A stretch of 64,000 bases of DNA, from assembly GCA_903843305.1 (NCBI GenBank), contig CAIMPI010000009.1, forward strand, positions 1 to 64,000. The letters are read 5' to 3'. Below are positions 19,091 through 64,000 of this stretch, in pieces. The stretch is from an uncultured Chlorobiaceae bacterium. Lineage in GTDB: Bacteria > Bacteroidota > Chlorobiia > Chlorobiales > Chlorobiaceae. The number at the start of each line of letters is the position of its first letter. Position 1 is the first letter of the stretch. Made by a program: the position numbers and the translations under genes. The notes below the pieces were generated by a model that did no database searches, was not told where the DNA came from, and saw nothing but the letters and a program-made list of their open reading frames with translations.

Positions 19091-19215
19091 CTACGGGACG
19101 AAGACCAGGCGGAAGCCAACATCGAGGTCCCCGTCGTCGGGCGCGCCGACGCCGCGATCCGCCGACCGACAGCCCCCGGCGAAGTCGTCCCAGCCCCCGC
19201 CACGAATCACACGGG
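19091..19215 (-). other. Candidate DGR variable repeat at the 3' end of the sensor gene
   Basis: The last 40 codons encode the lectin ligand face between SRVIRGGGW and GFRLVFVP. They are much richer in G and C than the rest of the gene. The positions that are variable in FGE-type DGR targets (after GGGW, after CRSA, and before GFRLV) carry mostly NNC or NNT codons such as GAC, GAC, TTC, GGC, GTC, CTC and GAT. That is the result expected when template AAC codons are randomised at A. No reverse transcriptase, Avd or template repeat is in this window, so the element would have to act from elsewhere or be lost. Confidence 0.5.
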
Positions 19216-27357: not shown

Positions 27358-27416
27358 ACTTCAGGAAGTGCTTCTTTGAATGTCCATTATCCATTGATTG
27401 GAGGGATTTTGCTTCT

Positions 27417-33611: not shown

Positions 33612-33720
33612 CCATCATCATTCCCGGTCTTTATTCCGGGATGGAATTGGCACCGATCATCGTGCAATGACGGTTGCCAAGGCTTCTCTGGGCCAGTCCC
33701 TCCACCTTTCTGGATGATAG
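33612..33720 (-). ncRNA. SAM-I (S-box) riboswitch upstream of metX
   Basis: Reading the minus strand from 33720, the conserved blocks of the SAM-I aptamer appear in order: P1 strand CTATCATC, AGAAAGGTGGAGGGACTGGC, GAAGCC, TTGGCAACC, then GGTGCCAATTCC, a P4 hairpin CCCGG-loop-CCGGG, and the closing P1 strand GATGATGG. The core GGTGGAGGGACTGGCCC and GGCAACC are near-invariant in this class. It senses S-adenosylmethionine and controls the downstream methionine gene by attenuation. Confidence 0.95.
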
Positions 33721-48458: not shown

Positions 48459-50245
48459 TGTAATTCCTCCTTCACTTCCACTACTGTATTATTAAGCGCT
48501 TCATGAGTGGTTTGTACGCCCAACTGTGAAGCATAGATCTCCTGGTAAACAGCACTGCTCTGCATAAGCGAAAAGTGATTGCCTTGCCCTGCGATGTGCC
48601 CCTTGTCGAGCACTATTATGTTATCGGCATTGAGTACCGAACTGACCCGCTGGGCAACAATAAGCAAAGTGCATTTGCTGCTTTTCTTCTCAAGAGCGTC
48701 CTGTATCCTCGATTCCGTATCGATATCAACAGCACTGGTGCTGTCATCAAAAATCAAAATTTCAGCAGAAGCAAGCATCGCCCTCGCTATTGCGATGCGC
48801 TGTTTCTGACCGCCTGACAGATTTACGCCCCGTTCTTCAACTCTGGTATCATACCCTTGTGGCAATCGGATAATGAAATCATGAGCCTGAGCTGCCCTGG
48901 CAGCTTCAATCACCTCTTCTTCGGTTGCATCCGGAACGCCATAGCGGATATTGTCACGAATTGTGCCCGAAAAAAGAACCGTTTCCTGGGGAACAATTGC
49001 AATCCTCGAAAGCAGAGAGTCCTCGGTAACCGACCTGATATCGATGCCGTCGATGAGTATTCTGCCGGACGAAACATCGTAAAATCTTGGGATGAGGTTC
49101 ACAAGTGCCGATTTACCTGCACCTGTTGAACCAAGAATAGCAAGAGTCTTTCCCTTCTCTGCAACAAAACTTATCTCCTCAAGTACAAGGGCATCTGATT
49201 CTTTGTTGAATCGAAAAGAGACGTTCTCGAAAACAATCCGTCCTTTCTCCGATAGCGGAGGCATCGCAATTGCCTGAGACTGAAACTGAATATCAGGAAT
49301 GATGTCCAGCACTTCGGCAACACGCTTTGATGAGGCTATGCCTCCTGCCCATACATTCGTTAAATTCGCCATAAAAATCAGTGGTGCCATGGTTGTCAAA
49401 AGGTAATTCGTAAATGCTACGACCTGTCCGATACTCAACTCCCCATGAACAGCATCAAGCCCTCCAACCCAAATCACCAAAACCATACCCGCATTGATAC
49501 ACATGGTTAACAGCGGCGGCATGCTCGCCATAAACTTCATGACACTGATTGAATCTTTCGCAAATGCCTGATTGGCTTTATTAAAACGAGTGAATTCAAA
49601 ATCAGCCCTTACAAATGCCTTGATCAGACGTATCCCTGCGATATTTTCCTGCAGTACGCTACTCAGCCGGTCGAGCTGTCGCTGCACTGAGCTCCAGAGC
49701 GGCTCCATTTTTACGACAAAAAAGATAATTAGGGCACTTGTTATAAGTAGTAAGGGGAGAATAGTCAATGCAAGTGAGCTGCTGGTTTTGATCATCAGGG
49801 TAAGACTGCCGATCATCAGCAAGGTTGATCGCGTACCAATTCTGAGAGAAACCTGGGCAACACGCTGCACAGCCGATGTGTCGCTCGAAAGACGCACCAT
49901 GAGCTGCCCGGTATTCAACCTGTCAATGTTTCCAAATGAAAAGGATTGAATTTTGAGAAACAAGGCTTCACGAATATCGCGGGCAACGCTCTCACCTACC
50001 CTGACCGATAAAATGTGTGAACCTACTGCAAAAAAAACACTCAGGAGAGTGATCCCGAGCATCAGCAGACCTGTATCAATAACCACCTGTTGATTGTGCT
50101 GATGAATGCCCTGATCAATGATTTTCTGGATCAAACGGGGAATGCTGAGATCCATGCCCACCACTGCTGTAAGCAGCAACAGCGAGACTAATGCCTGTTT
50201 TCGATAGGGTTTTACAAAAGCAGTAAGTCGGAAAATATTACGCAT
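48455..50245 (-). CDS. ABC exporter half-transporter with degenerate ATPase site
   Basis: A 596-residue partner of the downstream exporter gene. It has six membrane helices, then LGSTGAGKSALVNLIPRF, NLSGGQKQRIAIARAML and Walker B ILIFDDSTSAVDIDTE. The residue after Walker B is Asp rather than the catalytic Glu, and the H-loop reads AQRVSSVL, with Gln in place of His. This marks the non-hydrolysing half of a heterodimeric exporter. Translation is coupled to the other half through a four-base overlap. Confidence 0.92.
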   Translation of the reverse strand: MRNIFRLTAFVKPYRKQALVSLLLLTAVVGMDLSIPRLIQKIIDQGIHQHNQQVVIDTGLLMLGITLLSVFFAVGSHILSVRVGESVARDIREALFLKIQSFSFGNIDRLNTGQLMVRLSSDTSAVQRVAQVSLRIGTRSTLLMIGSLTLMIKTSSSLALTILPLLLITSALIIFFVVKMEPLWSSVQRQLDRLSSVLQENIAGIRLIKAFVRADFEFTRFNKANQAFAKDSISVMKFMASMPPLLTMCINAGMVLVIWVGGLDAVHGELSIGQVVAFTNYLLTTMAPLIFMANLTNVWAGGIASSKRVAEVLDIIPDIQFQSQAIAMPPLSEKGRIVFENVSFRFNKESDALVLEEISFVAEKGKTLAILGSTGAGKSALVNLIPRFYDVSSGRILIDGIDIRSVTEDSLLSRIAIVPQETVLFSGTIRDNIRYGVPDATEEEVIEAARAAQAHDFIIRLPQGYDTRVEERGVNLSGGQKQRIAIARAMLASAEILIFDDSTSAVDIDTESRIQDALEKKSSKCTLLIVAQRVSSVLNADNIIVLDKGHIAGQGNHFSLMQSSAVYQEIYASQLGVQTTHEALNNTVVEVKEELQ

Positions 50246-50521: not shown

Positions 50522-51301
50522 TCAGATAGCATAAGCGAATGTATATTCCGTCCCGAGATGAAACTCTTCGAGTATCTCGGCTTTTATCTGCATAAACTCG
50601 GAACTTGCCCTGTCACGAGGCCGCGAAGATGAGACATCAATAATTTGTTTAATAATACCTGGACGTGAAGACATAATAACAACCTTGTCACTCAGGTATA
50701 TCGCTTCCTCAATATCATGAGTGACCATAATCATGGTGATTTTTTCAAGCTGCCATAATCTTTCAAGTTCTTTCTGCATATACATTCTCGTCAACGCATC
50801 AAGAGCTCCAAGCGGCTCATCGAGCAGAAGCATTTCCGGTTTGTTTGCCAATGCTCTTGCGATTGCTACCCTCTGCGCCATTCCGCCTGAAAGCTGCGAA
50901 GGATAGACGCTCTCAAACCCAATGAGACCAACAAGCTGAAGATGTTCATCAACAAGGAGTTTTTTCTCTTTCCGATTCAGCTTGTCCAATCCGAACGCAA
51001 CATTCTCTCCCACGGTAAGCCAGGGAAGAAGACGATGATCCTGAAAAACAATACCACGGTTAGTGCCTGGTCCAACAATCTGTTTCCCATCCATCAATGC
51101 TTCACCATCATAATGATTCTCAAGCCCAAGTATGATCCGCAGTAGAGTTGTCTTCCCGCACCCGCTGGAACCAACAATAGAGACAAATGAACCAGATGTA
51201 ACTGTCAGGTTGATGTTATTAAGAATCTGCAATGGACTATTGTCAACAATAAAACTTTTGCTGAGATTCCTGATTTCAAGAGTGCCTTTGTTATTTGACA
51301 T
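50522..51301 (-). CDS. SsuB/TauB-type ABC transporter ATPase
   Basis: A 259-residue importer ATPase of the nitrate/sulfonate/taurine family: GSSGCGKTTLLRIILGLE, Q-loop [53 protein letters not shown], with parts LSGGMAQRVA and LLLDEPLGALD, and TMIMVTHDIEEAIYLSD. It powers uptake with the two permeases encoded upstream and the SsuA-type binding protein further up the same strand. The substrate cannot be read from the sequence. Confidence 0.92.
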   Translation of the reverse strand: MSNNKGTLEIRNLSKSFIVDNSPLQILNNINLTVTSGSFVSIVGSSGCGKTTLLRIILGLENHYDGEALMDGKQIVGPGTNRGIVFQDHRLLPWLTVGENVAFGLDKLNRKEKKLLVDEHLQLVGLIGFESVYPSQLSGGMAQRVAIARALANKPEMLLLDEPLGALDALTRMYMQKELERLWQLEKITMIMVTHDIEEAIYLSDKVVIMSSRPGIIKQIIDVSSSRPRDRASSEFMQIKAEILEEFHLGTEYTFAYAI

Positions 51302-51318
51302 TTTCTTTTCGATTAAAT

Positions 51319-52107
51319 TTACTTATCAGCGCTGATGACTTGTCCCCGTTCTACTGCTTTCACTATTTTCTGAACCAGAAGGGTCATGGAATACCCCAAT
51401 ACCCCGACGGTAATAATTCCTGCAATAACCAGCGCTATATCAAAACGATCCCGTCCCCTCTGAATCTGCGTACCAATACCAAAAGCAGTTTGGATAAATA
51501 TTTCTGCAACCATCAAAACAGACCATGACATGGCAAGCCCCAGACTAATACCGGTGGCAATTGAGGGTAATGCTGCCGGTATAATAATTTTTCTGATCAG
51601 CGTCAATCCCTTGTATCCATAAACAGAAGCAAGTTCCAGATACTCTCTTGGCACATTTCTTACTCCGGAGAATGTATTCAGGGTTATCGGATAAAACGCT
51701 GCAACAGAAATGATCAGAACTCGTGGCAGTTCATTCATTCCAAACAACATAATGATCAGCGGGATCCAGCCGATCATCGGAACCTGGCGTACTGCATGAA
51801 AAAATGGAGCAAAAATCTTTTCTGCAGTTTTTGATAATCCCATGAGCAATCCGAAAATAAAACCAGCCAGAGTACCAATAAAAAAACCGATCATGACCCG
51901 CTGTAAACTGACCGCGATATTATGAGAATAGGTCGGATCAGAAAAAAGAATCACAAATTTTTGTAATACTTTATAAGGGGATGGAAGAAATCGTGCGGAT
52001 GGAAACCCTGCAAGAATAAATAACTGCCAAAAGGCAATAAAAACGATCGGAAAAGCAATAGCTCCCAGTATTCCTTTCGTTTTTTTGCTGATGAGGAGTT
52101 TTTTCAT
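51319..52107 (-). CDS. SsuC-type ABC transporter permease, copy 1
   Basis: A 262-residue inner-membrane permease with six hydrophobic segments and the BPD_transp_1 loop (YPITLNTFSGVRNVPREYLELASVYG, including EYLELASVYGYKG). Its start overlaps the stop of the upstream permease gene by four bases. It is clearly related to, but different from, that neighbour, so the pore is probably a heterodimer, unlike the usual SsuC homodimer. Confidence 0.9.
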   Translation of the reverse strand: MKKLLISKKTKGILGAIAFPIVFIAFWQLFILAGFPSARFLPSPYKVLQKFVILFSDPTYSHNIAVSLQRVMIGFFIGTLAGFIFGLLMGLSKTAEKIFAPFFHAVRQVPMIGWIPLIIMLFGMNELPRVLIISVAAFYPITLNTFSGVRNVPREYLELASVYGYKGLTLIRKIIIPAALPSIATGISLGLAMSWSVLMVAEIFIQTAFGIGTQIQRGRDRFDIALVIAGIITVGVLGYSMTLLVQKIVKAVERGQVISADK

Positions 52108-52898
52108 GCAGGCCTCCCGTCAACAGGCTCACGCCATAGTAAAAACTGCTTCTCGGCTCGTTCAAGAAGAAAATTCATTGCAAATCCAATCACTCCTACA
52201 AGAATCAAGCCCGCCATTACAAGATCAATCTGAAATACAGCACGTCCCCAGGTCATCAAATAGCCAACACCTGAATCCGATCCAAAAAGCTCTGCTCCAA
52301 CAACAAACATCCATGACAAGCCAAGACTGAGACGAATACCGGTGATTATCGAAGGCAATGCGCTTGGAATAATAACTTTAAAGAGGTAACGAAAACTCTT
52401 GTAATCGAAAACCCTGGCAAGTTCGTGATATTTTTCAGGAACACCGCTGACACCCTGATAGGTATTCAAGACCATCGGGTAAAACGCTCCGATTGCCACG
52501 AAAAAATATTTTGCAAATTCATCAATACCCAGAAACATTATGATCAGCGGCATCCAGGCAAACTCCGGAACCTGTTGGAGCGCTTTTATTAACGGACCAA
52601 AAATTCTGTTCAAAAACGGGGAGAGCGCCATGAGAATTCCAATAACAAACCCGGATGTTCCGCCAAGCAAAAATCCGATCATAACTCTTTTAAGGCTTGC
52701 CAGAATATTCAGAGTTAGGTCTCCTGATTGAGCAAGTTCGAGAAGCGTGTTCAAAAGGGTTAATGGCGGTGTCAGAATAAGTTCTGAACATAATTTCTGA
52801 GATACCGCACCCTGCCATGCTGCAAGCACCAGAAGCGGGACAATTATTGCCAGAAGTTTATCTTTTAATCCCAATCGTTGTAAGAATTTCTTTGCCAT
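52104..52898 (-). CDS. SsuC-type ABC transporter permease, copy 2
   Basis: A 264-residue permease paralogous to copy 1, with the EAA-type loop GVSGVPEKYHELARVFDYKS and the same spacing of helices (LLAIIVPLLVLAAWQG at the start). It comes 28 bases after the 16-codon scar of a dehydratase-family gene, which ties the transport genes to that enzyme operon. Confidence 0.9.
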   Translation of the reverse strand: MAKKFLQRLGLKDKLLAIIVPLLVLAAWQGAVSQKLCSELILTPPLTLLNTLLELAQSGDLTLNILASLKRVMIGFLLGGTSGFVIGILMALSPFLNRIFGPLIKALQQVPEFAWMPLIIMFLGIDEFAKYFFVAIGAFYPMVLNTYQGVSGVPEKYHELARVFDYKSFRYLFKVIIPSALPSIITGIRLSLGLSWMFVVGAELFGSDSGVGYLMTWGRAVFQIDLVMAGLILVGVIGFAMNFLLERAEKQFLLWREPVDGRPA

Positions 52899-52925: not shown

Positions 52926-52976
52926 CTATACCATCTCGATGAATGCCTCGACCCGGTTGGTCGACTGTTCGGTTGC
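52926..52976 (-). pseudogene. 16-codon scar of a deleted dehydratase-subunit gene
   Basis: Immediately after the TAA of the upstream gene, in the same frame, 16 codons read ATEQSTNRVEAFIEMV and then TAG. This is identical to the last 16 residues of the subunit gene at 58011-59399, with third-base differences in the DNA. The rest of that gene is missing here, so a deletion has fused its tail to the stop codon of the neighbouring gene. In the second gene set the same two genes stand in the same order and both are complete. Confidence 0.85.
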
Positions 52977-54155
52977 TTATACGAGTTCAGCAATCTCTTT
53001 TTTACTCTTTATCATTTCAATGAAGGCTTCCACTCTTGTACGAATGGCTTCAAAATCAGATCCGGAGTATTCCGTGTGGATCTCCAGAAACGGCAGCTTA
53101 CCCAGAACTTCTTTGGTTTCACCTGCTTTAAAGGTGAATGCATCGCAATAGCGAAGGGTGTGGTAGATTATTCCGTCAGCGCCGAACTCTTGTAGCTGAT
53201 GTTTCAGATTAGCAAGCCGGCCATCGCTCTTCAAATCGAGATAGGGAAGAGAGCCATGCGGAACCCTGTCGAGATAGGCATCGGCTACACCATAGGGGGT
53301 TGGCTCTTTTATTTCAAGATTGAGGAAGAAATTGAGTCCGCTCCATAGGTCATCTCCCACTATCCGTCCGCCCAATTGCTCAATGATATCGACAAGCTTG
53401 GTATCGCCCGGAGGAATAAGGCTGCCGGAAAGGAATATTCTGGCCTCTACTTCCCGCCTTCTGGACGGCTCCGAAAGTTTAGCCTCTGCTTCCACAATCA
53501 GCTCTTTCAGCAGTTCAAGATAGTGCGCTCTGTCAAGATTATAACCCGCATTGATAACGCTTGAGACTTCCCGCCAGCTTAAAGGCGCATTATCAAGACT
53601 TTGATACTTGTAAAGTGTCTTGATCGCTTCCCTGATTCCATCGTATATGTCTATTGCTTCCTCAAGTTTCGACTGTTCCAGAGTGACTCCGGCAAACTCT
53701 TCAAGTTTCTTTGTAAAGAATTCAACCTCTTTTCTGAAATACTCATGCCCCTCTTTGGTAGCAAAATTGCGCGGGACTCCAAGGACTACCGTTTTATAGC
53801 CGAAATAGAAGTTGATAAGCTCTTCAAGCCGGTAGAGCTGAATGCAGGTAGCATCAATAGCAACCAGATCGAGCTGTTGTATGTACGGATCGGTTTTCTC
53901 TGCAAATTGGCCAAGAGCCTGACGCACAAAGACACAATTCTTGGTCGAAATATGACGCGCACCGACTTCAACAAGCCGTCCATCGCCACCCTGCCCCACT
54001 CGTATTGGAATCAGTCCAAGCGCATAGATGATCTCTTCCGGAATGTTATAGGCAAGCCATCCAACAACTTTTTTACCCTCTTTGCGCAGTTGTTCAAGTT
54101 CAAGGGGACGGCTTTGTAATGCCGCCGATATTTTATCAAGAGTCTTCAAGCCCAT
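52977..54155 (-). CDS. 2-hydroxyacyl-CoA dehydratase-family subunit (HgdB-like), copy 1
   Basis: A 392-residue protein of the HGD-D family. Members carry a [4Fe-4S] cluster, receive an electron from an ATP-driven activase, and reduce or dehydrate a substrate by radical chemistry. Three Cys stand at cluster-ligand positions: STKNCVF, DATCIQLY and LRYCDAFTFK. GWLAYNIPEEIIYALGLIP is the typical N-terminal motif and SGSLIPPGDTKL starts the second domain. It overlaps the activase gene upstream by 10 bases. Its larger partner subunit is missing from this gene set, with only a scar after the stop, so it may pair with the copy at 58011 or work alone. Substrate unknown. Confidence 0.85.
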   Translation of the reverse strand: MGLKTLDKISAALQSRPLELEQLRKEGKKVVGWLAYNIPEEIIYALGLIPIRVGQGGDGRLVEVGARHISTKNCVFVRQALGQFAEKTDPYIQQLDLVAIDATCIQLYRLEELINFYFGYKTVVLGVPRNFATKEGHEYFRKEVEFFTKKLEEFAGVTLEQSKLEEAIDIYDGIREAIKTLYKYQSLDNAPLSWREVSSVINAGYNLDRAHYLELLKELIVEAEAKLSEPSRRREVEARIFLSGSLIPPGDTKLVDIIEQLGGRIVGDDLWSGLNFFLNLEIKEPTPYGVADAYLDRVPHGSLPYLDLKSDGRLANLKHQLQEFGADGIIYHTLRYCDAFTFKAGETKEVLGKLPFLEIHTEYSGSDFEAIRTRVEAFIEMIKSKKEIAELV

Positions 54156-54955
54156 AGTCCCTCCTTTTTAGCAAAACTGCGGGCAATAACGGCAGCACCC
54201 AAAGCGCCGATAAGCTGGGGATCAATTTCGGGACGAACAATGGTGACTTTCAGCGCCTGTTCGATCGCACTCTTCATGCCGGTGTTCTTTGCAACACCAC
54301 CTGAAAAAAAGACATCACTTGCTATGCCGACTCTTGAGAAAAGTCCGGCAATACGATTGGCAATCGAATGATGAATGCCGTTAAGAATGTTTTCAGGCTT
54401 TTCACCTCTTGCTACGAGAGAGATCGTTTCCGACTCGGCAAAAACCGTACAGGTGCTGCTCATCGGGACGGTATCGGTTGCCGAAAGAGCTATAGCCCCC
54501 AAGTCATCAAGTTTTACCTTGAACACCTCTGCCATCACCTCAAGAAAACGACCGGTACCTGCTGCACATTTATCGTTCATGGCAAAATCAACTACAGCTC
54601 CATCCTCATCTATTCGTATAGCCTTGCAATCCTGGCCGCCCATATCAATGATAGTGCGAACGGTCGGATGCAGATAGTTTGCGCCTTTGGCATGGCAGGT
54701 AATTTCAGTTACGGCCTTGTTGGCATAGGGTGCAGAAACGCGACCGTAGCCGGTTCCGACGATATAGGTGAGATCTTCCTTTTTTAGTCCGGCTGCATCC
54801 AGTGCGAGGTTCAAGGCACTTAAACCGCTTTCGACCGAATTCACACCACTCTTCAGAAGACCAGTGGCAAAGATATCGCCATCCTTCAAAATCACTGCTT
54901 TTGCAGCCAGGGAACCGACATCAACACCAGCAAAATAATTATAGCTAAAAGACAT
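54146..54955 (-). CDS. ATP-dependent activase of the HgdC/BadF family, copy 1
   Basis: A 269-residue ASKHA-fold ATPase. It uses ATP hydrolysis to drive a low-potential electron from its inter-subunit [4Fe-4S] cluster into a dehydratase or reductase. Motifs: GVDVGSLAAKAVIL (phosphate 1), GTGYGR, IDMGGQDCK (phosphate 2), and the two cluster cysteines in NDKCAAGTGRFLE and MSSTCTVFAESE, as in HgdC of Acidaminococcus. FFSGGVAKN completes the nucleotide site. About 20 of 269 residues differ from copy 2, a recent duplication. It lies between the SsuA-type gene and the subunit gene. Confidence 0.93.
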   Translation of the reverse strand: MSFSYNYFAGVDVGSLAAKAVILKDGDIFATGLLKSGVNSVESGLSALNLALDAAGLKKEDLTYIVGTGYGRVSAPYANKAVTEITCHAKGANYLHPTVRTIIDMGGQDCKAIRIDEDGAVVDFAMNDKCAAGTGRFLEVMAEVFKVKLDDLGAIALSATDTVPMSSTCTVFAESETISLVARGEKPENILNGIHHSIANRIAGLFSRVGIASDVFFSGGVAKNTGMKSAIEQALKVTIVRPEIDPQLIGALGAAVIARSFAKKEGLWA

Positions 54956-55015
54956 TTTATACTCCAGATTTCAGGTTATTTCAGAATTTCAACTAATCAT
55001 GTCATTATTGTACAA

Positions 55016-55045
55016 CAGGAGCAAAACAAACGCGTTGCCCCTGTA
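55016..55045. repeat. Inverted repeat between the binding-protein and activase genes
   Basis: ACAGGAGCAA (55016-55025) and TTGCCCCTGT (55036-55045) pair with one mismatch around ten bases. The repeat lies just after the stop of the minus-strand binding-protein gene. No T-run follows. It may trim expression of the downstream enzyme genes relative to the abundant binding protein. Confidence 0.5.
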
Positions 55046-55076
55046 ACTTCTCTTTTATCAAACAGTTGGGTACCTG

Positions 55077-56108
55077 TTAATGCACCCAGTATTTATCATA
55101 GCCGAGTTCTTTTAAAACAGGTGCCTGAAAACGGAGATCAAATAACTCACTGACATTATAGTGCCTCCTGATGATGCCGCGTTTAAAGGCAAAATCAATG
55201 ATCTCCTGATAATCTTTCAGCACTTTGGGGGTGACGGTGGGGTCATACCTCTCTTTTGGAGGAAGAGCACCAATAAGATCTGCTTTGATATGCTTGTAGG
55301 TTCCCCCGAGTTTAACGGATGACTGAATAATGGCCTCCTGGTTCTCAGGTTTTGATGCCCAGTAATATCCTTTAAGAAGAGTCTTCAGAACTCTCTTGGT
55401 GATTTCAGGATACTTGTTGGCAAAGGCTTCGGTTACAAAAATTGAACCCGGACCACTTTTAAACTGAGGATACTTGCGAGTATCGAAGAGTAACGTTGCA
55501 ACTCCCTGGTCAACAAGAGGGCGGTCAGAACTACTCACAATGGCATCAACACTGTTTGTAGCAAGTGCAGCCTGTGCGTCAGCATTAACCAAATTCACAC
55601 CCCTGATGTCTTTCTCAGTCAAACCGACCGCTTCAAGAACTCTGTTGAAGGCGAGGTGAAGATAGGTGCCCTTTTGATAGCCGATCCTCTTTCCTTTGAG
55701 ATCCTTCAATGATTTGATACCTGATGCCGGATTAACTTGGATATAGATATTACTGCCGCCAGCTCCGCTCGTACTGATAATTTTGTACGGCAACCCTCCA
55801 GCTCTGCCAACAACGGTAACGAGATCACCCGCGGATCCAAAATCGATCAATCCTGAAGCAATAGCCTCATTCTGACCGGGACCCATAGCAGTGTAATAGG
55901 TGCGCTCTATCTTGATACCATCTTTTGCAAACTCCTTTTCCAAAAGCCCCTGATCATTAACCCAGCCTGAAGCTCCGCTAGCGGCAGGGATTTTAAGAGA
56001 ATTTCCTCCACCGCCAATCCGAATCACTTTTGGTTTTTCTTCTGCCTGTGCCACCACTGTCATAAACAACAGCGCTACAATTGGTAAAGCTTTTATCCAC
56101 TTTTTCAT
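55077..56108 (-). CDS. SsuA-type periplasmic substrate-binding protein
   Basis: A 343-residue nitrate/sulfonate/taurine-type binding protein. It has a signal peptide (KKWIKALPIVALLFMTVVAQA) and a bilobed NMT1-like fold with the hinge phrases GLIDFGSAGDLVTV, LKDLKGKRIGYQKGTYLHLA and NSVDAIVSSSDRPLV. A Gly/Ser-rich stretch (RIGGGGNSLKIPAASG) lines the expected ligand entry. I chose the ATG at 56108, since GGAG lies at proper distance and the upstream ATGs at 56126 and 56111 crowd it. It delivers the unknown ligand to the two permeases. The enzyme genes lie between it and the permeases in the same run. Confidence 0.9.
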   Translation of the reverse strand: MKKWIKALPIVALLFMTVVAQAEEKPKVIRIGGGGNSLKIPAASGASGWVNDQGLLEKEFAKDGIKIERTYYTAMGPGQNEAIASGLIDFGSAGDLVTVVGRAGGLPYKIISTSGAGGSNIYIQVNPASGIKSLKDLKGKRIGYQKGTYLHLAFNRVLEAVGLTEKDIRGVNLVNADAQAALATNSVDAIVSSSDRPLVDQGVATLLFDTRKYPQFKSGPGSIFVTEAFANKYPEITKRVLKTLLKGYYWASKPENQEAIIQSSVKLGGTYKHIKADLIGALPPKERYDPTVTPKVLKDYQEIIDFAFKRGIIRRHYNVSELFDLRFQAPVLKELGYDKYWVH

Positions 56109-56137
56109 GTCCATTCTCCTTATCATGTTTAGGTCAA

Positions 56138-57493
56138 TTAAAATCCAAATTGGAATTGTGCTGCAAACGTGTTCTGTTTCAGGTTTACTGCCTTATCATC
56201 ACTTATACTGTAATTCAACTGAAACTTGGTTGTCTCAGCAAAGAAAACATTGAAGCCCAGCGTTGTAATATTTGATTCATTACTTGCAACCGCTGTGTCC
56301 GGATCCCAATGATCATAACGAAGAAAAGGTTGAAATGTTGTGGGCCACCAGTCGTCATTTCTGGACTGATTTCTTGAATTCTTGTAGAACTGCTCACCCC
56401 ATTCATAGAAGAGTGTTACCGTATAACCCTTGCTTTCCGTAGTTGCTCTTACTGCGTTGGCAAGCGTCAATCCGGAAAGTGCTTTTTCATCTTTGCCAAT
56501 AACATACTCAGCAGTAAATCCGAATGGGGCACTGACATAAGAGAGATCCGTTCCATAGCGAATTTTTTTTGCTTCTCCCTCTCCTTTGGTAATGAGAGTG
56601 GTACCCTTGTAAAGATCCTGCTTGCCTCTATAAAAAGAGCCACCAAGAGCCAAACCACGATATGGTGAATAATAACCTGCCGGTGCATTGATGACAATCC
56701 TGCCCTCAATATCTTTATCCTGGTTGGTATCCGCTGTATTCGGGCCAGAACCATTATAAAGACCTAATGAATACTCAATAAGGGGAATGCGATAATTGTA
56801 CCCAAGATCTACGACCGGAAATAAATCTCCGTAAAACCGAATACCAATATCTCGTGCAGAGAGACCAAGTTTTGAAGCAAACTGTGCCAAATTGATTGCT
56901 GGCTGTTTATCTTCTGTCGTTGTTGCTTCAAGGCCAAAATTCTTTTTCTGTTGACCGATATTCACATTTAAATATGGCTTATCGATATCAAGAGACTGGC
57001 CAATGGAGTATTGCAGATAGGCGTCAGTTGGCTGAAGATTATATGATGTATTACTCCCCAAGCCAAGCGTATAAGAGATACTTTTACCTTCCTCATAATC
57101 TCTTTTCAGGTATCCTTTCAGGGAAAGAATCGCCGAATTGAAAAGAAATCCATTTTTATTGGGAGAGGTAGAGACTGAATAGCGGGTCTGTGTGGAACCG
57201 CTGATACTGAGCGATCGCTTTGAATTGGCAATAGTCTTGTCAAGCCTCTGGGTTAACTGATCTCTGAGTGTCGCAATTTCGGCTCTCACTCCGTCCAGCT
57301 CGGCTTGTGACACATTGCCGCCAGCTTCTGAAGTATCCTTTTCAGAAAGATCTTCAGAACCGAACGGCACTGCTGTAGAATCGCTCACTGGTTGCTGTCG
57401 CGGTTCTGTCTCTGCAGTCTCGGCTGCCCGCAGATTGGCGTTACCAATCAAAAGAGCACCAAGAACAAGAATAGTCAACTTTCTTTTACTCAT
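56138..57493 (-). CDS. Outer-membrane porin (phosphate-selective porin O/P type)
   Basis: A 451-residue beta-barrel protein with a signal peptide (KRKLTILVLGALLIGNANLRAA). A coiled-coil-like segment (VSQAELDGVRAEIATLRDQLTQRLDKTI, with core GVRAEIATLRDQL) may form a trimer stalk. About sixteen amphipathic strands follow, ending in QNTFAAQFQFGF with terminal Phe for BAM recognition. It resembles OprP/OprO-type porins, so an anionic substrate is plausible. It is the first gene before the binding protein, 29 bases apart, and probably the outer entry route of the same uptake system. Confidence 0.85.
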   Translation of the reverse strand: MSKRKLTILVLGALLIGNANLRAAETAETEPRQQPVSDSTAVPFGSEDLSEKDTSEAGGNVSQAELDGVRAEIATLRDQLTQRLDKTIANSKRSLSISGSTQTRYSVSTSPNKNGFLFNSAILSLKGYLKRDYEEGKSISYTLGLGSNTSYNLQPTDAYLQYSIGQSLDIDKPYLNVNIGQQKKNFGLEATTTEDKQPAINLAQFASKLGLSARDIGIRFYGDLFPVVDLGYNYRIPLIEYSLGLYNGSGPNTADTNQDKDIEGRIVINAPAGYYSPYRGLALGGSFYRGKQDLYKGTTLITKGEGEAKKIRYGTDLSYVSAPFGFTAEYVIGKDEKALSGLTLANAVRATTESKGYTVTLFYEWGEQFYKNSRNQSRNDDWWPTTFQPFLRYDHWDPDTAVASNESNITTLGFNVFFAETTKFQLNYSISDDKAVNLKQNTFAAQFQFGF

Positions 57494-58010
57494 TATTTCC
57501 CTTTGATTATTTGACGCGTTGAGTTCAAATTCTTTAACTATGATTATTCAATAATGTTGTGTGTAATTAATAAAACTTGTCCAGGCACAACATCGAAAAG
57601 CGCTATTTAGATACATTTTCTGCATATTTTTTTTAAAATCTCGACAACAATCATGAAAAGAAAACGCCAATCCCCTGAAAGCATGAATTGGCTTTCTTAT
57701 ACGCTTTTTTGTTTAATAAATGCTATAAAAGGAGCAAAAACTATTGCATCAGAGAGCTATAAAGCGGCAACAACAAGGAGGATTTAAAATTACAATTACA
57801 TTCATGACAATAGCTTTACTAAAAGTTCTTTTATTGATTACATAATATTCTATATCATTAATTATGTAAATATCAATAATCTAAATGGATTAAAAAATCC
57901 CTTCTATGCGGTGTATTACGTACCATAAATAAGCTACCCTTGATAATTAAAAAATCAAATTGATATTATAAATAACTGACACTGCAGCAGAGTACAAGGA
58001 CTTAAACAAA
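57494..58010. other. 517-bp intergenic region upstream of the porin
   Basis: AT-rich, no gene seen. At 57655-57692 the minus strand has GCCAAT and ATTGGC arms around 15 bases followed by a T-rich run, a likely weak terminator for the gene set upstream. The porin-transport-enzyme operon promoter should lie between there and 57493. Confidence 0.5.
57655..57692 (-). terminator. Probable terminator after the second dehydratase gene set
   Basis: On the minus strand GCCAAT (57692-57687) and ATTGGC (57671-57666) form a hairpin followed by GTTTTCTTTTC. It lies about 320 bases after the end of the 58011 gene and before the porin. The stem is short, so strength is uncertain. Confidence 0.4.
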
Positions 58011-59399
58011 CTATACCATTTCTATAAACGCCTCGACGCGATTTGTTGACTGTTCGGTTGCTTCTGAACGTCCCAATTCACCAACTTCAACAAATGTTGT
58101 CACGACTCCAGCCCTTTGTTTTACTATATCCGAGATCATCCGTGCCACACCGCTCTGATAATTGCAACCCCATTGGTACATAAAAATAACACCATCAGCG
58201 CGGGATCTCTTCACCATATCGGCTGTCCATTCAGCACGTTTTTCGGTGCGCTGTTCATAAGGATAAGCGAGCATTGATTTGGCAATATTGAGATAGGGAT
58301 CACCTTCTTCTTCGACTGGCACAGAAATGCAACTCCAGCTATCGTCACGGCCTACAAAAACAGCGCCTGCGGTTTGCGCATGATGGGCATTCGGCCCGAC
58401 GCAGGAACCGCAAATAAACAGTCGTTTTGCATGATCCGGAACACCAAATCCCTTGATATTATTCTGAATCCGTTCCTCAATCTCCTTTTTGCTCTGCTCA
58501 AGCAGATCGACTGATGCAACAGGATCCCCTACAAAATCATTGGCAAGAAAGGCAATGCCAAAAAAATCGGTACTGTTCGTAGGCGGATTTTCAGCTCCCC
58601 ACCATAAATCAGCAATTTCGGTAGCAATCCTGCGGCCCCGATTCTCAAGTTTTATCTCATCAAAGAGCACTTCATCAGTGATTTTTCTGCCGGAAAGCGC
58701 GGCAATTTTGTCGATGAGTTCGCGCAACTCAGCAGCAATGTACTCTGCCGCCCACGGCTTGTTTTCATGGTCGACTGGATAATCAACAAGGTAACGGGGA
58801 ATATCGTGAACCCGGTTGCGATGCGTTTCAACCAGAAATGACATATCAGAACAACGCAGGCAAAGAAATGGGGCAATCAAATCAATCGGCACAACCTTAT
58901 TGTCAATTGCAGCATGCGCTGCAATCTGATTGCATGCATCGATACTGATTTTGCGTCGTCCGGATTCGAGGATATTGAGGCCCAGCGTTTCTGACTGGCG
59001 AAGAGAGAGCCCCTCCTCCATATTCCGAGCCCATTGCATGACCAAACCCGGTCGCACAGGTATTCCGCCTGCGGCGTAGTAAGCATCCATCGCCTGTCCA
59101 CCCTGAACCAACACTGTTGGTGTTCCGGCTGCGTGTTGTTTCATCACCCGATCCTTCAGAGTAAGAGTCAGGTAACCTCTTTTAATACCCGAAAGAAAGT
59201 GAACATCGTCTGAAAACCGGCCCATGTTATTGGCTCCGGCATCAAACGCATAGGGGAAGCGTTTAGGGGCTTCTTTAGTCATGAAATCCCAAATTTCAGC
59301 AGAACTGACCGTGGAGCCGTCCTTAAATTTCAAACCCGGTGTTGCTACAAATTTATCCTTGATCTCTTCTGGATAGCTGAACGGTGAAATAATCGCCAT
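58011..59399 (-). CDS. 2-hydroxyacyl-CoA dehydratase-family subunit (HgdA-like), complete copy A'
   Basis: A 462-residue HGD-D family protein. Cysteines shared with the paralogue at 60708 are in SIDACNQ, LRCSDM, GSCVGPN and QWGCNYQSG, enough for an iron-sulfur cluster. Other shared phrases are VLVQGGQAMDAYYAA, ADLWWGAENPPTNS, EEEGDPYLNIAKSMLAYPYEQ and the tail RVEAFIEMV. It is the last gene of the run activase - A - B - A'. Its last 16 residues are exactly those of the scar at 52926. With the B subunit upstream it probably forms the two-subunit catalytic part. Confidence 0.83.
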   Translation of the reverse strand: MAIISPFSYPEEIKDKFVATPGLKFKDGSTVSSAEIWDFMTKEAPKRFPYAFDAGANNMGRFSDDVHFLSGIKRGYLTLTLKDRVMKQHAAGTPTVLVQGGQAMDAYYAAGGIPVRPGLVMQWARNMEEGLSLRQSETLGLNILESGRRKISIDACNQIAAHAAIDNKVVPIDLIAPFLCLRCSDMSFLVETHRNRVHDIPRYLVDYPVDHENKPWAAEYIAAELRELIDKIAALSGRKITDEVLFDEIKLENRGRRIATEIADLWWGAENPPTNSTDFFGIAFLANDFVGDPVASVDLLEQSKKEIEERIQNNIKGFGVPDHAKRLFICGSCVGPNAHHAQTAGAVFVGRDDSWSCISVPVEEEGDPYLNIAKSMLAYPYEQRTEKRAEWTADMVKRSRADGVIFMYQWGCNYQSGVARMISDIVKQRAGVVTTFVEVGELGRSEATEQSTNRVEAFIEMV

Positions 59400-59456
59400 G
59401 ATCTCTTTCTATGTTTATGTGTTATATAAAATCAACAGATATCTTGCATCCTCATT

Positions 59457-60662
59457 TCAGGCATCCACCAGAACACTTTGCTCCTCGGCAATCTCTGATT
59501 TGATCTTGATCATTTCAACAAATGCCTCGACCCTGGTTTTCATCGCTTCATAATCAGATCCTGCGTATTCGGTATGAATCTCCAGCAGAGGAATGCCGGA
59601 CTTCGCCAATACATTCTTGGTCTCCTTGGCTTTGAAGGTAAATGGATCACAATAGCGCAACGTGTGGTAGATAACTCCCTGTGCCTTGAACTGGCTCAAA
59701 CACTCCTGCAACTTCTTCAGTCGTCTGTCGCTCTCCAGATCAAGGTACGGCAGTGCCGCATGAGGAGTCCGATTCAGATAACCAAGAGCAACTCCTGCCG
59801 GTGAAATCTCTTTGATATCAAGGTCAAGATGCGGAAGGATCCCGGACCAGAGATCGTCTCCCACAATCCGGCCCCCAACCGACTTGATGATGCTGATCAG
59901 TTTCCGGTCTCCTCGCGGAATAAGGCTTCCTGATAAAAAAATCCTGCTGTCACCATCATCGGAAGCAATCACGGGATAGTGCTGACGCTCCTTCAACTCA
60001 TCCAGTGTCTGGGTGAGCAGGGAAAGATACTCCCTTTTGTCAAGCAGTTCACCGGCCTGAATAAGGTCGTAGACCTCCTCCCATGAGATCACGTTATTTT
60101 TGGACGCCTGGAAGGTGTAGATACTTTTCAGGGTCTTGCGGATGTCGTTGTACAATGCTACCGATTCAGCCAGTCTGGCTGAATCCAGAGGAGCTCCGGC
60201 CCGTTCTTCCAGAAGACGGGTAAACTCATTGGCCTCATGGGCAAAGTATTCCTTGGCCTCGTCCAAATGAAAGTTGCGCGGCACTGCCAGTACGACCACA
60301 TCTTTTTTAAAGAAATACTCGATAACTTCAGCCGCCCGATAATTCTGCAGACAGGTAGCATCGAAAGCAAGTATGTCCGTTTGCTGAATATAGGGATCCT
60401 TGTTTTCGGCAAATGCCCCCACAATTTCACGAATAAAAACACAGGTTTTGCTCGATGCATATCTTGCACCGATTTCAACCAGTCGGTCATCTCCTCCAAC
60501 GGCAATTCTCACCGGTATAAAACCCAGTGCATGGATAATCTCCTCGGGGACATTATAACCAACCCACCCTACAACCTTCAGGCCATTCTCACGAGCTCGC
60601 CTCAACTCATCAGGGCGCTCCTCAAGCCGTTTTCTAATGACGTCCAGTGTCTTGACAGACAT
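59457..60662 (-). CDS. 2-hydroxyacyl-CoA dehydratase-family subunit (HgdB-like), copy 2
   Basis: A 401-residue paralogue of the 52977 gene, alignable throughout: VGWVGYNVPEEIIHALGFIP, SSKTCVFIREI, FDATCLQNYR, SGSLIPRGDRKL, GGRIVGDDLWSG, and HTLRYCDPFTFKAKET. The same three Cys are kept. The C-terminus is longer (EEQSVLVDA). I chose the ATG at 60662 (MSVKTLDVI), which follows AGGAG by seven bases and matches the start of the paralogue; an upstream in-frame ATG at 60680 would overlap the ribosome site. Confidence 0.85.
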   Translation of the reverse strand: MSVKTLDVIRKRLEERPDELRRARENGLKVVGWVGYNVPEEIIHALGFIPVRIAVGGDDRLVEIGARYASSKTCVFIREIVGAFAENKDPYIQQTDILAFDATCLQNYRAAEVIEYFFKKDVVVLAVPRNFHLDEAKEYFAHEANEFTRLLEERAGAPLDSARLAESVALYNDIRKTLKSIYTFQASKNNVISWEEVYDLIQAGELLDKREYLSLLTQTLDELKERQHYPVIASDDGDSRIFLSGSLIPRGDRKLISIIKSVGGRIVGDDLWSGILPHLDLDIKEISPAGVALGYLNRTPHAALPYLDLESDRRLKKLQECLSQFKAQGVIYHTLRYCDPFTFKAKETKNVLAKSGIPLLEIHTEYAGSDYEAMKTRVEAFVEMIKIKSEIAEEQSVLVDA

Positions 60663-60707
60663 AATTCCGCTCCTATTCATTTTAGATCAGTTGAGAAAAT
60701 TTTAATT

Positions 60708-62093
60708 TCAGAGCATTTCAACAAAAGCGTTTACTCGATTCTGCTCCTGCTCGTCCCGCAATCCGTGAAGGTCACGCTCATGGATATAGGTGGGAATCCC
60801 TGTTTCACGCTTGATGATATCAACAATGGGCCGGGAGATGGCAGCCTGTGTATTGCAGCCCCAGTTATGAATAAAAATAACCCCGTCAGCCCTCGATTTT
60901 TTGATCTGTTCAATTGTCCATTGCGCTCTTTTTTCGATGCTTTGCTCGTAAGGATATTCAAGAGTGGCTTTGGCCAGATTATAATAGGGATCGCCCTCCT
61001 CTTCAACCAGTGAAGAGCAATGACTCCATTGATCATCCCTGCCAACAACAATCGCACCGGCATCTTCACTTCTGGATCCGTTTATTCCTACACAAGAGCC
61101 AAGAATAAAAAGCCTTTTCGGATTATCGGCTACCGCATGTCCTTTGACACCATTCTTTACCCGTTCGGCTATAAATTTTTTTGCCTCTTTAAGAACGCTC
61201 AAAGATGCCTGCACGTCTCCATGAACTTCCAGATTTCCAAGCGAGACCATGGATGCGCGGTCATCGCTGTTGGTTGGCGGAACATCGGCCGACCACCATA
61301 ATTCAGCCAATTCCGTCCCAAGTCTTCTCCCTGTGTTATGCAGCTTTATCGCTTTCAACAAATCATCTTCACTGGTTTTTCTGCCAGTTACTTCATCCAG
61401 GGTATTTACCAGTCTCCGCAGATTCTGAGCGAAATATTCAATGGCCCATGGCTTGTCGGCCTGATATCGCAGAGGATAATCAACGTTCAGCAGTTTGACA
61501 TTTTTTTTGGGGCCATGCCGGTGAGCCTCAACTCCGTAGGAAATATCTGAACAGCGAAGAACGGTATAGGGAGCGATGACATCAATACGTAAATCTCCAG
61601 CCTGTACATGCTCATACCCGCCTGTTTGACATGCCTCAAAGCTCATATCATGAAACGCTTTCTCTTTCGATTTTTTGCGTCTCAAGTTCTCTTTATTTAT
61701 ATCATTACCATATTCAAGACCGTTGTTCCACTGGTTAACAAGTCCGGGCCTCAGTGCAATGGTATCGGCAGCGGTATAAGGGTCTACTGCTTGTCCTCCC
61801 TGAATAAAGGCTATGCTTTTGCCATTGTCTTTTGCCTTCTCCATCCGCGCACTGAAGGTGAGTCCCAGATAGCGGGTCTTCAGCGATGTAGGCAAGGTCT
61901 CATCCCTGCTGCCACGATTTCCCTGATAGAGATTAACTTCAAAGGCGCTCGGGTATTTCACCGGCGCTTCTTCAGTCAAATAATGCCAAATCTCCTCTGG
62001 AGAGACCGTGCTCCCGTCATTAAACGTGATGTTGTCACTCTCCAGAAACTTTTCCTTGTTTGCTTCCGAATATCTGAATAACTGCTTACCCAT
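60708..62093 (-). CDS. 2-hydroxyacyl-CoA dehydratase-family subunit (HgdA-like), copy A
   Basis: A 461-residue protein, about the size of A' and sharing its layout: FNDGSTVSPEEIWHYLTEEAP, IAFIQGGQAVDPYTAAD, FEACQTGG, VLRCSDISYGVEAHRHG, AELWWSADVPPTNS, ILGSCVGING, EEEGDPYYNLAKATLEYPYEQ, HNWGCNTQAAISRPIVDIIKRE and RVNAFVEML. It is closer to the partial gene at the window end than to A'. It lies between the activase and copy 2 of the B subunit. Two different A-type genes in one set suggest two enzymes sharing an activase and a B subunit, or a three-part complex. Confidence 0.83.
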   Translation of the reverse strand: MGKQLFRYSEANKEKFLESDNITFNDGSTVSPEEIWHYLTEEAPVKYPSAFEVNLYQGNRGSRDETLPTSLKTRYLGLTFSARMEKAKDNGKSIAFIQGGQAVDPYTAADTIALRPGLVNQWNNGLEYGNDINKENLRRKKSKEKAFHDMSFEACQTGGYEHVQAGDLRIDVIAPYTVLRCSDISYGVEAHRHGPKKNVKLLNVDYPLRYQADKPWAIEYFAQNLRRLVNTLDEVTGRKTSEDDLLKAIKLHNTGRRLGTELAELWWSADVPPTNSDDRASMVSLGNLEVHGDVQASLSVLKEAKKFIAERVKNGVKGHAVADNPKRLFILGSCVGINGSRSEDAGAIVVGRDDQWSHCSSLVEEEGDPYYNLAKATLEYPYEQSIEKRAQWTIEQIKKSRADGVIFIHNWGCNTQAAISRPIVDIIKRETGIPTYIHERDLHGLRDEQEQNRVNAFVEML

Positions 62094-62187
62094 GAATGCG
62101 TCCCTCCTTGAGGAGTTTATTTTTGATCATTTCTTTTAAATGCAATGAGCGTGCTCTAAAGGAGCATCATACTTTACCTGTGTGTTG

Positions 62188-62997
62188 TCAGGCCCATAGC
62201 CCCTCTTTTTTGGCAAAGTTGCGCGCTATAACTGCGGCGCCAAGGGCTCCGATAAGCTGAGGATCAATTTCCGGCTTGACGATGGTGACTTTCAGCGCTT
62301 GTTCGATGGCATTTTTCATGCCGCTGTTCTTGGCTACGCCACCGGAAAAAAAGACGTCGCTTTCAATTCCTACTCTTGAGAAGAGGCCGGCAATTCGATT
62401 GGCAATGGAGTGGTGGATACCATTCAGAATATTTTCAGGCTTTTCGCCTCTGGCTACCAGCGAGATCGTTTCAGACTCTGCAAAGACTGTGCAGGTACTG
62501 CTCATGGGTACCGTATCGGTGGCAGACAAGGCTATAGCTCCAAGATCTTTAAGCTCAACTTTAAAGACACCAGCCATTACTTCAAGAAAACGGCCGGTAC
62601 CTGCGGCGCATTTATCGTTCATGGCAAAATCGACGACTGCTCCATCCTGATCTATCCGTATAGCTTTACAGTCCTGACCACCCATATCAATGATCGTCCG
62701 AACAGTCGGATGCAGGTAGTTTGCGCCTTTGGCGTGGCAGGTTATTTCCGTCACAGCCTTATTGGCGTAAGGGGCAGAAACTCGTCCATACCCTGTTCCT
62801 ACAATATAAGTCAGCTCTTCCTGCTTGAGTCCCGCCGACTCCAAAGCTATATTCAACGCATTCAACCCGCTTTCCACAGAATTGACTCCACTCGGAACAA
62901 GTCCTGTAGCGAAAATATCGCCATCTTTCAGAATCACAGATTTTGCTGCCAGTGAACCGACATCAACACCAGCAAAATAATTTCCACTTAACGACAT
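62188..62997 (-). CDS. ATP-dependent activase of the HgdC/BadF family, copy 2
   Basis: A 269-residue near-duplicate of the activase at 54146, with the same ATP motifs (GVDVGSLAAKSVIL, IDMGGQDCK, SGGVAKN) and cluster cysteines (NDKCAAGTGRFLE, SSTCTVFAES). Most differences are conservative and lie in the first 60 residues. I chose the ATG at 62997 (MSLSGNYFAGVDVG) to match the other copy; the frame opens at 63009. It heads the run activase - A - B - A' and should energise those subunits. Confidence 0.93.
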   Translation of the reverse strand: MSLSGNYFAGVDVGSLAAKSVILKDGDIFATGLVPSGVNSVESGLNALNIALESAGLKQEELTYIVGTGYGRVSAPYANKAVTEITCHAKGANYLHPTVRTIIDMGGQDCKAIRIDQDGAVVDFAMNDKCAAGTGRFLEVMAGVFKVELKDLGAIALSATDTVPMSSTCTVFAESETISLVARGEKPENILNGIHHSIANRIAGLFSRVGIESDVFFSGGVAKNSGMKNAIEQALKVTIVKPEIDPQLIGALGAAVIARNFAKKEGLWA

Positions 62998-63009
62998 CGC
63001 ATACTCCAA

Positions 63010-63574
63010 TTGTTGAGTTATATAAATTTTTTCTTGTCAGGATATTTTGCAATCACATTTTCTACGTTCTCTTGCTATTGTTCAATTGATTTGAATTTTT
63101 AACATAAAAAAAGCCAAATCTTTGACCATAAGAATCGGCTTCCATATAAACTTGCCTGCATTTTCAAGTACTATGTCGGAACGATAATAATGGCTTTTTG
63201 ATTCTCTTGAAAGCAACAACAATAAAGAAAGCTGTCTGATATCTTGCTCTTTGTCATAATAAATCAACCGGATTAATTGTTTTCATTCCCATCATACGTT
63301 AATCAAAAAGATATAATCCAACCTTACTTCTTAATATGATGAATAAACAGATAGTTACAAATCCCTGTTAAAAGGTATATTTTATCCCGCAAATAGGTTA
63401 TGACTAGATATCAAATTTTTCAATGGAATATCTATGAATTATCCTGCAAGCAGCATAGGATCTGCAGCGCTGCACAACAAATAATTGCAGATCATTTTGC
63501 ACAAAGATTATCCATTAAGACTGGCAAGAAATGAATCGTTTTTCTCTCTTCGAAAATAAAGTATTACCCGAAAT
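63010..63574. other. 565-bp AT-rich intergenic region
   Basis: No gene is visible. A terminator for the minus strand lies at 63105-63141, about 430 bases after the upstream partial gene. The promoter for activase copy 2 should be between that terminator and 62997. Confidence 0.5.
63105..63141 (-). terminator. Rho-independent terminator upstream of activase copy 2
   Basis: On the minus strand AAGCCGATTCTT (63141-63130) pairs with AAGATTTGGCTT (63122-63111), with one mismatch and one G-U, around a seven-base loop. A run of T continues to 63106. It separates the partial dehydratase gene from the activase copy 2 operon. Confidence 0.75.
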
Positions 63575-64000
63575 TCAGAGCATTTCTATGAAGGCGCTGA
63601 CACGATTATGTTCCTGTTCATGCTGTAACCCGAATTCGCTTTCATGAATGTAGGTCGGTATTCCTGTCTCGCGCTTGATAACATCAACAACGGCTCTCGA
63701 AATTGAGGCCTGTGTATTGCAGCCCCATCTATGGATAAAAATAACACCCTCGGCTCTTGATCTCCTGATCTGTTCGATTGTCCACTGGGCTCTTTCCTCG
63801 ATTCCCTGCTCATAGGGATAGTTAAGAGTGGCTTTGGCCAGATTGTAGAAGGGGTCGCCCTCTTCATCAACAAGGGAGTTGATGGTGCTCCAGCCATCGT
63901 CCTTCCCGACAACTATTGCGCCATCGACTTCGCTTCTGGCATTGTTCACCCCGACACAGGAACCGAGAATAAACAACCTCTTCGGATTATCCGGAACGCC
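63575..64000 (-). CDS. 2-hydroxyacyl-CoA dehydratase-family subunit (HgdA-like), partial, runs off the window
   Basis: The last 141 codons of a third A-type gene; the 5' part lies beyond 64000 and the frame is open to the edge. It reads PDNPKRLFILGSCVGVNNARS, DEEGDPFYNLAKATLNYPYEQ, HRWGCNTQASISRAVVDVIKRE and RVSAFIEML, closely matching the end of the 60708 gene. Two conserved Cys (GSCVG, WGCN) are visible. The cluster therefore continues past the window. Confidence 0.85.
   Translation of the reverse strand, partial: GVPDNPKRLFILGSCVGVNNARSEVDGAIVVGKDDGWSTINSLVDEEGDPFYNLAKATLNYPYEQGIEERAQWTIEQIRRSRAEGVIFIHRWGCNTQASISRAVVDVIKRETGIPTYIHESEFGLQHEQEHNRVSAFIEML

Follow-up and report, generated by a model that had tools for sequence, protein, structure and literature searches.

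Genes of the locus and their arrangement

The window analyzed here is a stretch of 64,000 nucleotides from an uncultured Chlorobiaceae bacterium (GenBank assembly GCA_903843305.1, contig CAIMPI010000009.1, positions 1 to 64,000). Toward its end lies a group of minus-strand genes (50522-64954, extending past the window on the 112,570-base contig) in which two sets of a BcrAD/BadFG-type activase and subunits of the benzoyl-CoA reductase (BCR)/2-hydroxyacyl-CoA dehydratase (HAD)/double-cubane cluster protein (DCCP) superfamily are interspersed with importer genes and a porin. All of these genes are intact. A sequence-only reading of the window had described an interleaved run of porin, SsuA, activases, subunits, permeases, and ATPase as a single operon at 52926-64000. 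Every one of these genes was found, but the proposed extent did not hold: the permeases and the ATPase lie at 50522-52898, and gaps of 517 bp between the porin and A3 genes and 565 bp between the activase-2 and A2 genes suggest up to three transcription units instead of one.

The importer genes encode an SsuB/TauB-type ATPase (50522..51301; Pfam PF00005), two SsuC-type permeases (51319..52107 and 52104..52898; both PF00528, 42% identical to each other), and an SsuA/NMT1-type binding protein (55077..56126; PF09084), with an outer-membrane porin of the Porin_O_P family alongside (56138..57493; PF07396). The binding protein matched the SsuA_fam model (TIGR01728) over nearly its whole length with 144.2 bits, below the cut-off of 163.5, and its closest solved relative is annotated as SsuA (3UIF). 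The best NCBIfam match of the ATPase was SaoA (266.6 bits; cut-off, 360), and the SaoP and SsuC models stayed under their cut-offs for the first permease. The binding protein, permease, and ATPase families are those of SsuABC and TauABC, from which this system differs by its two permeases, its porin, and an anaerobic reductase replacing the SsuD and TauD oxygenases.

The enzyme subunits all match PF06050 and fall into two types, A and B. B1 (52977..54155; 250.7 bits) adjoins activase-1, an ATP-driven electron activator (54146..54955; PF01869; TIGR00241, 271 bits against a cut-off of 125). The other set consists of B2 (59457..60680; 255.6 bits), A1 (60708..62093; 139 bits), activase-2 (62188..63009; PF01869; TIGR00241, 269.5 bits), which is 93% identical to activase-1, and A2 (63575-64954, or L001:575-1954; 119 bits). 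A2 is a complete protein of 459 amino acids, 74% identical to A1, with only its C-terminal part (63575..64000) inside the window. A further subunit, A3 (58011..59399; 158 bits), lies between the porin and B2. Its equivalents sit between B and a permease at four other loci (L028, L029, L032, and L034), three of which (L028, L029, and L034) have the operon order porin-SsuA-activase-B-A-permease-permease-ATPase. Judging by this related order, A3 probably belongs with B1 as a partner that has been displaced. The five subunits A1, A2, A3, B1, and B2 account for all HGD-D matches in the genome.

Cysteine patterns and family membership of the enzyme

Membership in the broad BCR/HAD/DCCP superfamily was clear from PF06050 and PF01869 scores over their cut-offs, from the fold, and from the activase cysteines, of which C130 and C169 are invariant. 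The top 20 Foldseek matches all belonged to this superfamily. The closest solved relatives are DCCP (the best Protein Data Bank [PDB] sequence match of B1), HadC, and BzdN for B and MbdQ, HadI, and HgdC for the activase. In an alignment of 37 B sequences, exactly three cysteines were invariant. Reading B against BzdN, we found that the equivalents of C73, C100, and C327, the proximal-cluster trio, are kept while C36, C263, and C293 are lost, with an invariant Trp at the position of C263, a distal-cluster cysteine. BzdO binds its catalytic aqua-[4Fe-4S] cluster through three cysteines, with Trp46 and the substrate ring occupying the room left by the lost sub-cluster (PMC11971306). Given this shared three-cysteine pattern, B is likely the subunit that performs catalysis and would carry just one open-site [4Fe-4S] cluster.

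Sixty A sequences share four conserved cysteines (C155, C181, C334, and C413 in A1), one of them with a single exception. The A1 model (predicted local distance difference test [pLDDT] score, 88.2) has the same fold as B plus an N-terminal extension, with template modeling (TM) scores of 0.63-0.68 to MbdN, HadB, and DCCP, and the fourth cysteine (C334) lies where DCCP has none. A would likely serve as an electron relay.

None of the curated families nearest to the enzyme accommodated it. For the double-cubane cluster protein model (NF040772; cut-off, 350 bits), B1 scored 199, B2 192, and A 69-71 bits. The sequence-only reading had raised a double-cubane cluster; this idea failed, as three of the six ligand cysteines (the BzdN C36/73/100/263/293/327 set; PMC11971306) are absent from B in all 37 rows, even though a BadF-type activase partner is present (TIGR00241 over cut-off, MbdQ/HgdC-like). 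The HadC equivalog NF052456 (cut-off, 700) gave 94 and 87 bits, so that model does not support a 2-hydroxyacyl-CoA dehydratase. Class I benzoyl-CoA reductases require a six-cysteine N subunit, a three-cysteine O subunit, and two activases, as opposed to three cysteines in B, four in A, and one activase per set here. The Sao selenocysteine-assisted system, compared through NCBIfam models, also fell short (SaoA, 267 of 360 bits; SaoP, 165-174 of 295; SaoX, 21 of 300). Judged by these sequence comparisons, the enzyme appears to be neither a double-cubane protein nor a standard dehydratase or benzoyl-CoA reductase.

Several known systems nevertheless share parts of this architecture. DCCP with its activase (PDB 6ENO and 7YYL) has the fold of B (TM score, 0.84 for the B2 model at pLDDT 85.9; 23% identity) and likewise an activase partner, but it forms homodimers in which each chain has six cluster cysteines, whereas B keeps three and is joined by a separate A subunit. 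BzdNOPQ and MbdONQP resemble the module in their heterodimeric active-site module and activase, MbdQ being the closest solved one, and the three-cysteine open-site cluster of BzdO is the predicted state of B. They perform CoA chemistry, of which the context here has none, and the module differs further in its one activase gene per set and in lacking the BzdN six-cysteine pattern in both A and B. HadBC/HadI and HgdAB/HgdC also combine an activase with two related iron-sulfur subunits; compared with these, A is extended at the N terminus by about 90 residues and has the fourth conserved cysteine, and an importer takes the place of the CoA-transferase.

Pairing of importer and enzyme across lineages

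Using the A/B alignment, we scanned 84,980 species genomes and obtained 38 loci of the same A subfamily, with 32 loci of other HGD-D proteins from the same scan as controls. The family loci come from Chlorobiaceae, Bacillota (including Ruminiclostridium hungatei, Paenibacillus forsythiae, and metagenome-assembled genomes [MAGs]), Pseudomonadota, Margulisiibacteriota, Spirochaetota, Bathyarchaeota, and Methanosarcinales/Methanoperedens. An SsuC-type permease lay within 8 kb of A at 33 of the 38 family loci, spanning seven lineages, and at 0 of 32 controls (Fisher p = 5e-15); an SsuA-type protein lay within that distance at 30/38 and 0/32, respectively (Fisher p = 1e-12). These and our other association tests treat related genomes as independent, ignoring common ancestry. 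Several of the family loci missing importer genes are contig ends. The recurrence of activase, A, and B beside SsuABC-type genes that the sequence-only reading had asked about is therefore real and extends across phyla, and transporter and enzyme were not kept apart in relatives.

At nearly all of the family loci, activase, B, and A occur with relatives of SsuA, SsuB, and SsuC, in three arrangements: porin-SsuA-activase-B-A-permease-permease-ATPase, ATPase-permease-activase-B-A-SsuA, and activase-B-A-ATPase-permease-SsuA. A porin orthologue adjoins the module in Margulisiibacteriota as well. In R. hungatei, an importer of the SBP_bac_1/MalK type, with substrate-binding proteins (SBP), replaces the SsuABC type within the operon (B-A-A-activase-SBP-SBP-A-B-A-ATPase-ATPase-SBP-permease-permease). 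B1 and B2 of the window fall in different parts of the B tree (support for the B2 group, 100/100), and the clades on both sides hold importer-linked members in several phyla. Taken together, the importer and the ATP-driven reductase form a conserved gene unit in several phyla, outside every curated family tested, and coupling of the enzyme to the importer is well supported. No description of this pairing was found in the literature searched, an absence that is no proof of novelty.

The module is rare. It was present in 13 of 86 Chlorobiaceae genomes and, query genomes counted, in 2/398 genomes of the phylum of locus L015 (Bacillota), 1/396 of the family of P. forsythiae, and 1/348 of an alphaproteobacterial order. 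These three surveys yielded one new locus in total, L088, from the phylum sample, so prevalence outside Chlorobiaceae is low. L088 has the same gene order, a LacI-type regulator, and an MFS-like exporter. Such a rare, patchy distribution points to horizontal transfer.

Exporters of the MFS, MATE, EamA, and ABC types adjoin many modules, and a fumarate-reductase-like flavoprotein occurs in six type-II loci. In the window, a heterodimeric ABC exporter pair (46596..50245, minus strand; ABC_membrane/ABC_tran) comes after the module, as it does in other Chlorobiaceae (synteny in L078 and L079). A Methanoperedens MAG (L039:6988-18548) carries several paralogous class I S-adenosylmethionine (SAM) methyltransferases interspersed with its module. 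At L019:17057-20511, a third, very divergent activase-B-A lineage (41% identity in B, 29% in A) directly follows SsuA-permease-permease-ATPase genes; the importer-coupled family therefore reaches beyond the part surveyed here.

Nitrogenase-like neighbor and sulfur metabolism

Past position 64000, we found no CoA pathway, whose presence there the sequence-only reading had said would refute it; a radical SAM gene linked to tatD and genes for ABC exporters come next. At L001:6968-14579 (contig 69968-77579), this Chlorobium carries nitrogenase-like NflHDK genes with two SsuA genes, a permease, and an ATPase; the nitrogenase-like genes are accompanied by those for a variant radical SAM protein and a small, apparently flavin-binding protein. 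NflD has one cluster-type cysteine, C76, its only other cysteine (C249) lying outside the cluster region, and NflK has three (C67, C92, and C155). The isethionate reductase IsrD/IsrK has one NifD-type and three NifK-type cluster cysteines, and Rhodobacter capsulatus uses Isr with SsuCAB in anaerobic sulfur assimilation (PMC11423573), whereas methylthio-alkane reductase has a three-plus-three pattern (PMC12552129). By cysteine pattern, the NflD/NflK pair is thus Isr-like; the closest solved relative of NflD is MarD (9FMG). The Isr paper has no mention of Chlorobi (PMC11423573). Of the 13 module carriers, 9 have the Nfl gene, compared with 14 of the 73 other Chlorobiaceae.

IsrBHDK with SsuCAB of R. 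capsulatus (PMC11423573) is also a close parallel to the module, being an ATP-driven, O2-independent reductase that works with an SsuABC importer of its own. Isr is a nitrogenase-like enzyme and has a radical SAM partner, while the enzyme here belongs to the unrelated BCR/HAD/DCCP superfamily and uses a BadF-type activase; the set with the Isr cysteine pattern is about 10 kb away on this contig.

Sulfur genes surround the module at two loci. In L015, the module is flanked at one end by metC/metB-type, cysK, and cysE genes with a CymR-like regulator and at its other end by a SAM riboswitch preceding metA. At L026 (Bathyarchaeota), CysKM-like and siroheme sulfite/nitrite reductase genes precede the module and metY-metX follow it. 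Among the 32 controls, the only cys/met neighbor was one weak CysN-like match. In the window genome, a gene for an assimilatory siroheme reductase precedes cysH-, cysD-, and cysN-like genes (CysH and CysN assigned by eye), and CysD was present in 13/13 module carriers compared with 43/73 noncarrier Chlorobiaceae (p = 0.002, uncorrected for ancestry). In two Chlorobiaceae genomes (G033:C2 and G084:C4), about 32-34 kb separate the module from genes for an assimilatory sulfite reductase and CysD. A SAM riboswitch (86 bits) was found in the window at 33612-33720 on the minus strand, directly upstream of metX (32404-33474). No SAM riboswitch precedes the module itself; the only matches were this one and the one ahead of metA in L015.

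Proposed function and alternatives

Sulfur assimilation from an organic sulfonate is favored by the Isr-like neighbor, the context of L015 and L026, and the CysD and siroheme reductase genes. In the mechanism we propose, the porin and the putatively dedicated SsuABC importer would carry a small non-CoA anion into the cytoplasm. Upon ATP hydrolysis, the activase dimer would hand low-potential electrons to the A/B heterodimer, a step suggested by homology and the conserved cysteines. The enzyme could then cut a sulfonate or related organosulfur compound reductively at its C-S bond, and the sulfite released would pass to the assimilatory sulfite reductase of the genome. We put the chances at about even that the system assimilates sulfur by such ATP-driven cleavage of an organosulfur compound, probably a sulfonate, that is imported and not bound to CoA. 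The sequence-only reading had offered a sulfonate, a nitrogen compound, or a small anion as the ligand; of these, the sulfonate is best supported, whereas its suggested candidates acetylene, azide, and hydrazine found no support.

Several observations count against a sulfonate. Clear cys/met neighbors were seen in just two of the loci examined, and most loci lack adjoining sulfur genes. Of the sulfonate contacts in Xanthomonas citri SsuA (Gln36, Gly68, Gly86, and Ser141; PMC3839906), the window SsuA keeps the two backbone glycines but has Tyr at Ser141, and Gln36 falls outside the aligned part. The statistical neglect of ancestry noted above belongs here, too. We had also considered independence from sulfide, by which carriers should be without dsrA; dsrA occurs in 10/13 carriers (and 46/73 noncarriers), hence there is no general inability to use sulfide and that idea was rejected. 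LacI-type regulators, 54-76% identical to each other, adjoin the Bacillota modules L017, L020, and L088, and the R. hungatei importer is CUT1-like, of the carbohydrate type; both hint at a sugar-like ligand. An importer-coupled reductase acting on a sulfur-free substrate (sugar-like, aromatic, or nitrogenous) by reductive deoxygenation, dehydration, or dearomatization, with export of the product, would explain these features together with the flavoprotein of the six type-II loci and the many neighboring exporters, and the NMT1/SsuA fold accepts many ligand classes. We consider it rather unlikely, though a serious competitor, as it leaves the cys/met context of L015 and L026 and the Isr-like neighbor unaccounted for. 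One could speculate that a sulfosugar would fit both the sulfur and the sugar hints.

Homology of activase, A, and B to 2-hydroxyacyl-CoA dehydratases and benzoyl-CoA reductases could mean that the enzyme is CoA dependent, in a fermentative or aromatic pathway, with the importer unrelated. This is improbable with the dehydratase and BCR models far under their cut-offs, the importer retained across phyla, and no CoA ligase or transferase in the run, as the sequence-only reading had noted, or past 64000; none was recognized among the annotated neighbors of the window or the family loci, although such a gene could lie elsewhere. A scan for the AMP-binding motif of CoA ligases gave 0 matches in family and control loci and, having no working positive control, was not counted. 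A shade more improbable is a double-cubane small-molecule reductase or Sao relative acting on an organometal or small inorganic substrate: double_cubane (for B), SaoA, and SaoP are the best NCBIfam matches and an HMA-domain protein is close by, but all of these scores are under cut-off and B is without three of the six double-cubane cysteines. The very patchy distribution could also reflect neighbors without a common function on a mobile island. We disfavor this most strongly, because several phyla, and two deep B clades, show the same pairing despite differing importer subfamilies and gene orders.

For organosulfur cleavage, a broader picture can be drawn. With two enzymes from two ancient clades and a third, nitrogenase-like system of Isr pattern, the region resembles an organosulfur-scavenging island. 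Tentatively, and with somewhat less than even confidence, we propose a second, independently evolved O2-free C-S cleavage, in which BadF-type activases and a non-CoA BCR-superfamily heterodimer would act on sulfonates, perhaps sulfosugars such as sulfoquinovose, in parallel with and beside the Isr-like enzyme on one island. The solved ATP-dependent BCR/HAD enzymes of known catabolic role use CoA thioesters, and no physiological role is known for double-cubane proteins (PMC11971306). An enzyme lineage bound to a dedicated importer would form a non-CoA branch whose physiological role can be read. Should a sulfonate be the substrate, this would be a second ATP-driven anaerobic desulfonation chemistry besides Isr and would suggest a sulfur acquisition route for anaerobes of sulfur-poor habitats. 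The importer also offers a handle on the substrate by ligand screening, which is missing for most orphan BCR-like enzymes.

Other features of the contig

A third SsuABC set, at L002:386-6491 (contig 83386-89491), lies with a PNPOx-like protein and two radical SAM-like proteins and is possibly yet another substrate system. Within the window, a minus-strand gene at 19091-22246 encodes a 1,051-amino-acid protein that, by eye, resembles a NACHT-type NTPase joined to a formylglycine-generating-enzyme-like part at the C terminus and is a possible defense gene. On the plus strand, 23491-29102 encodes what appear by eye to be a large repetitive exported protein and then a two-partner-secretion-type transporter.

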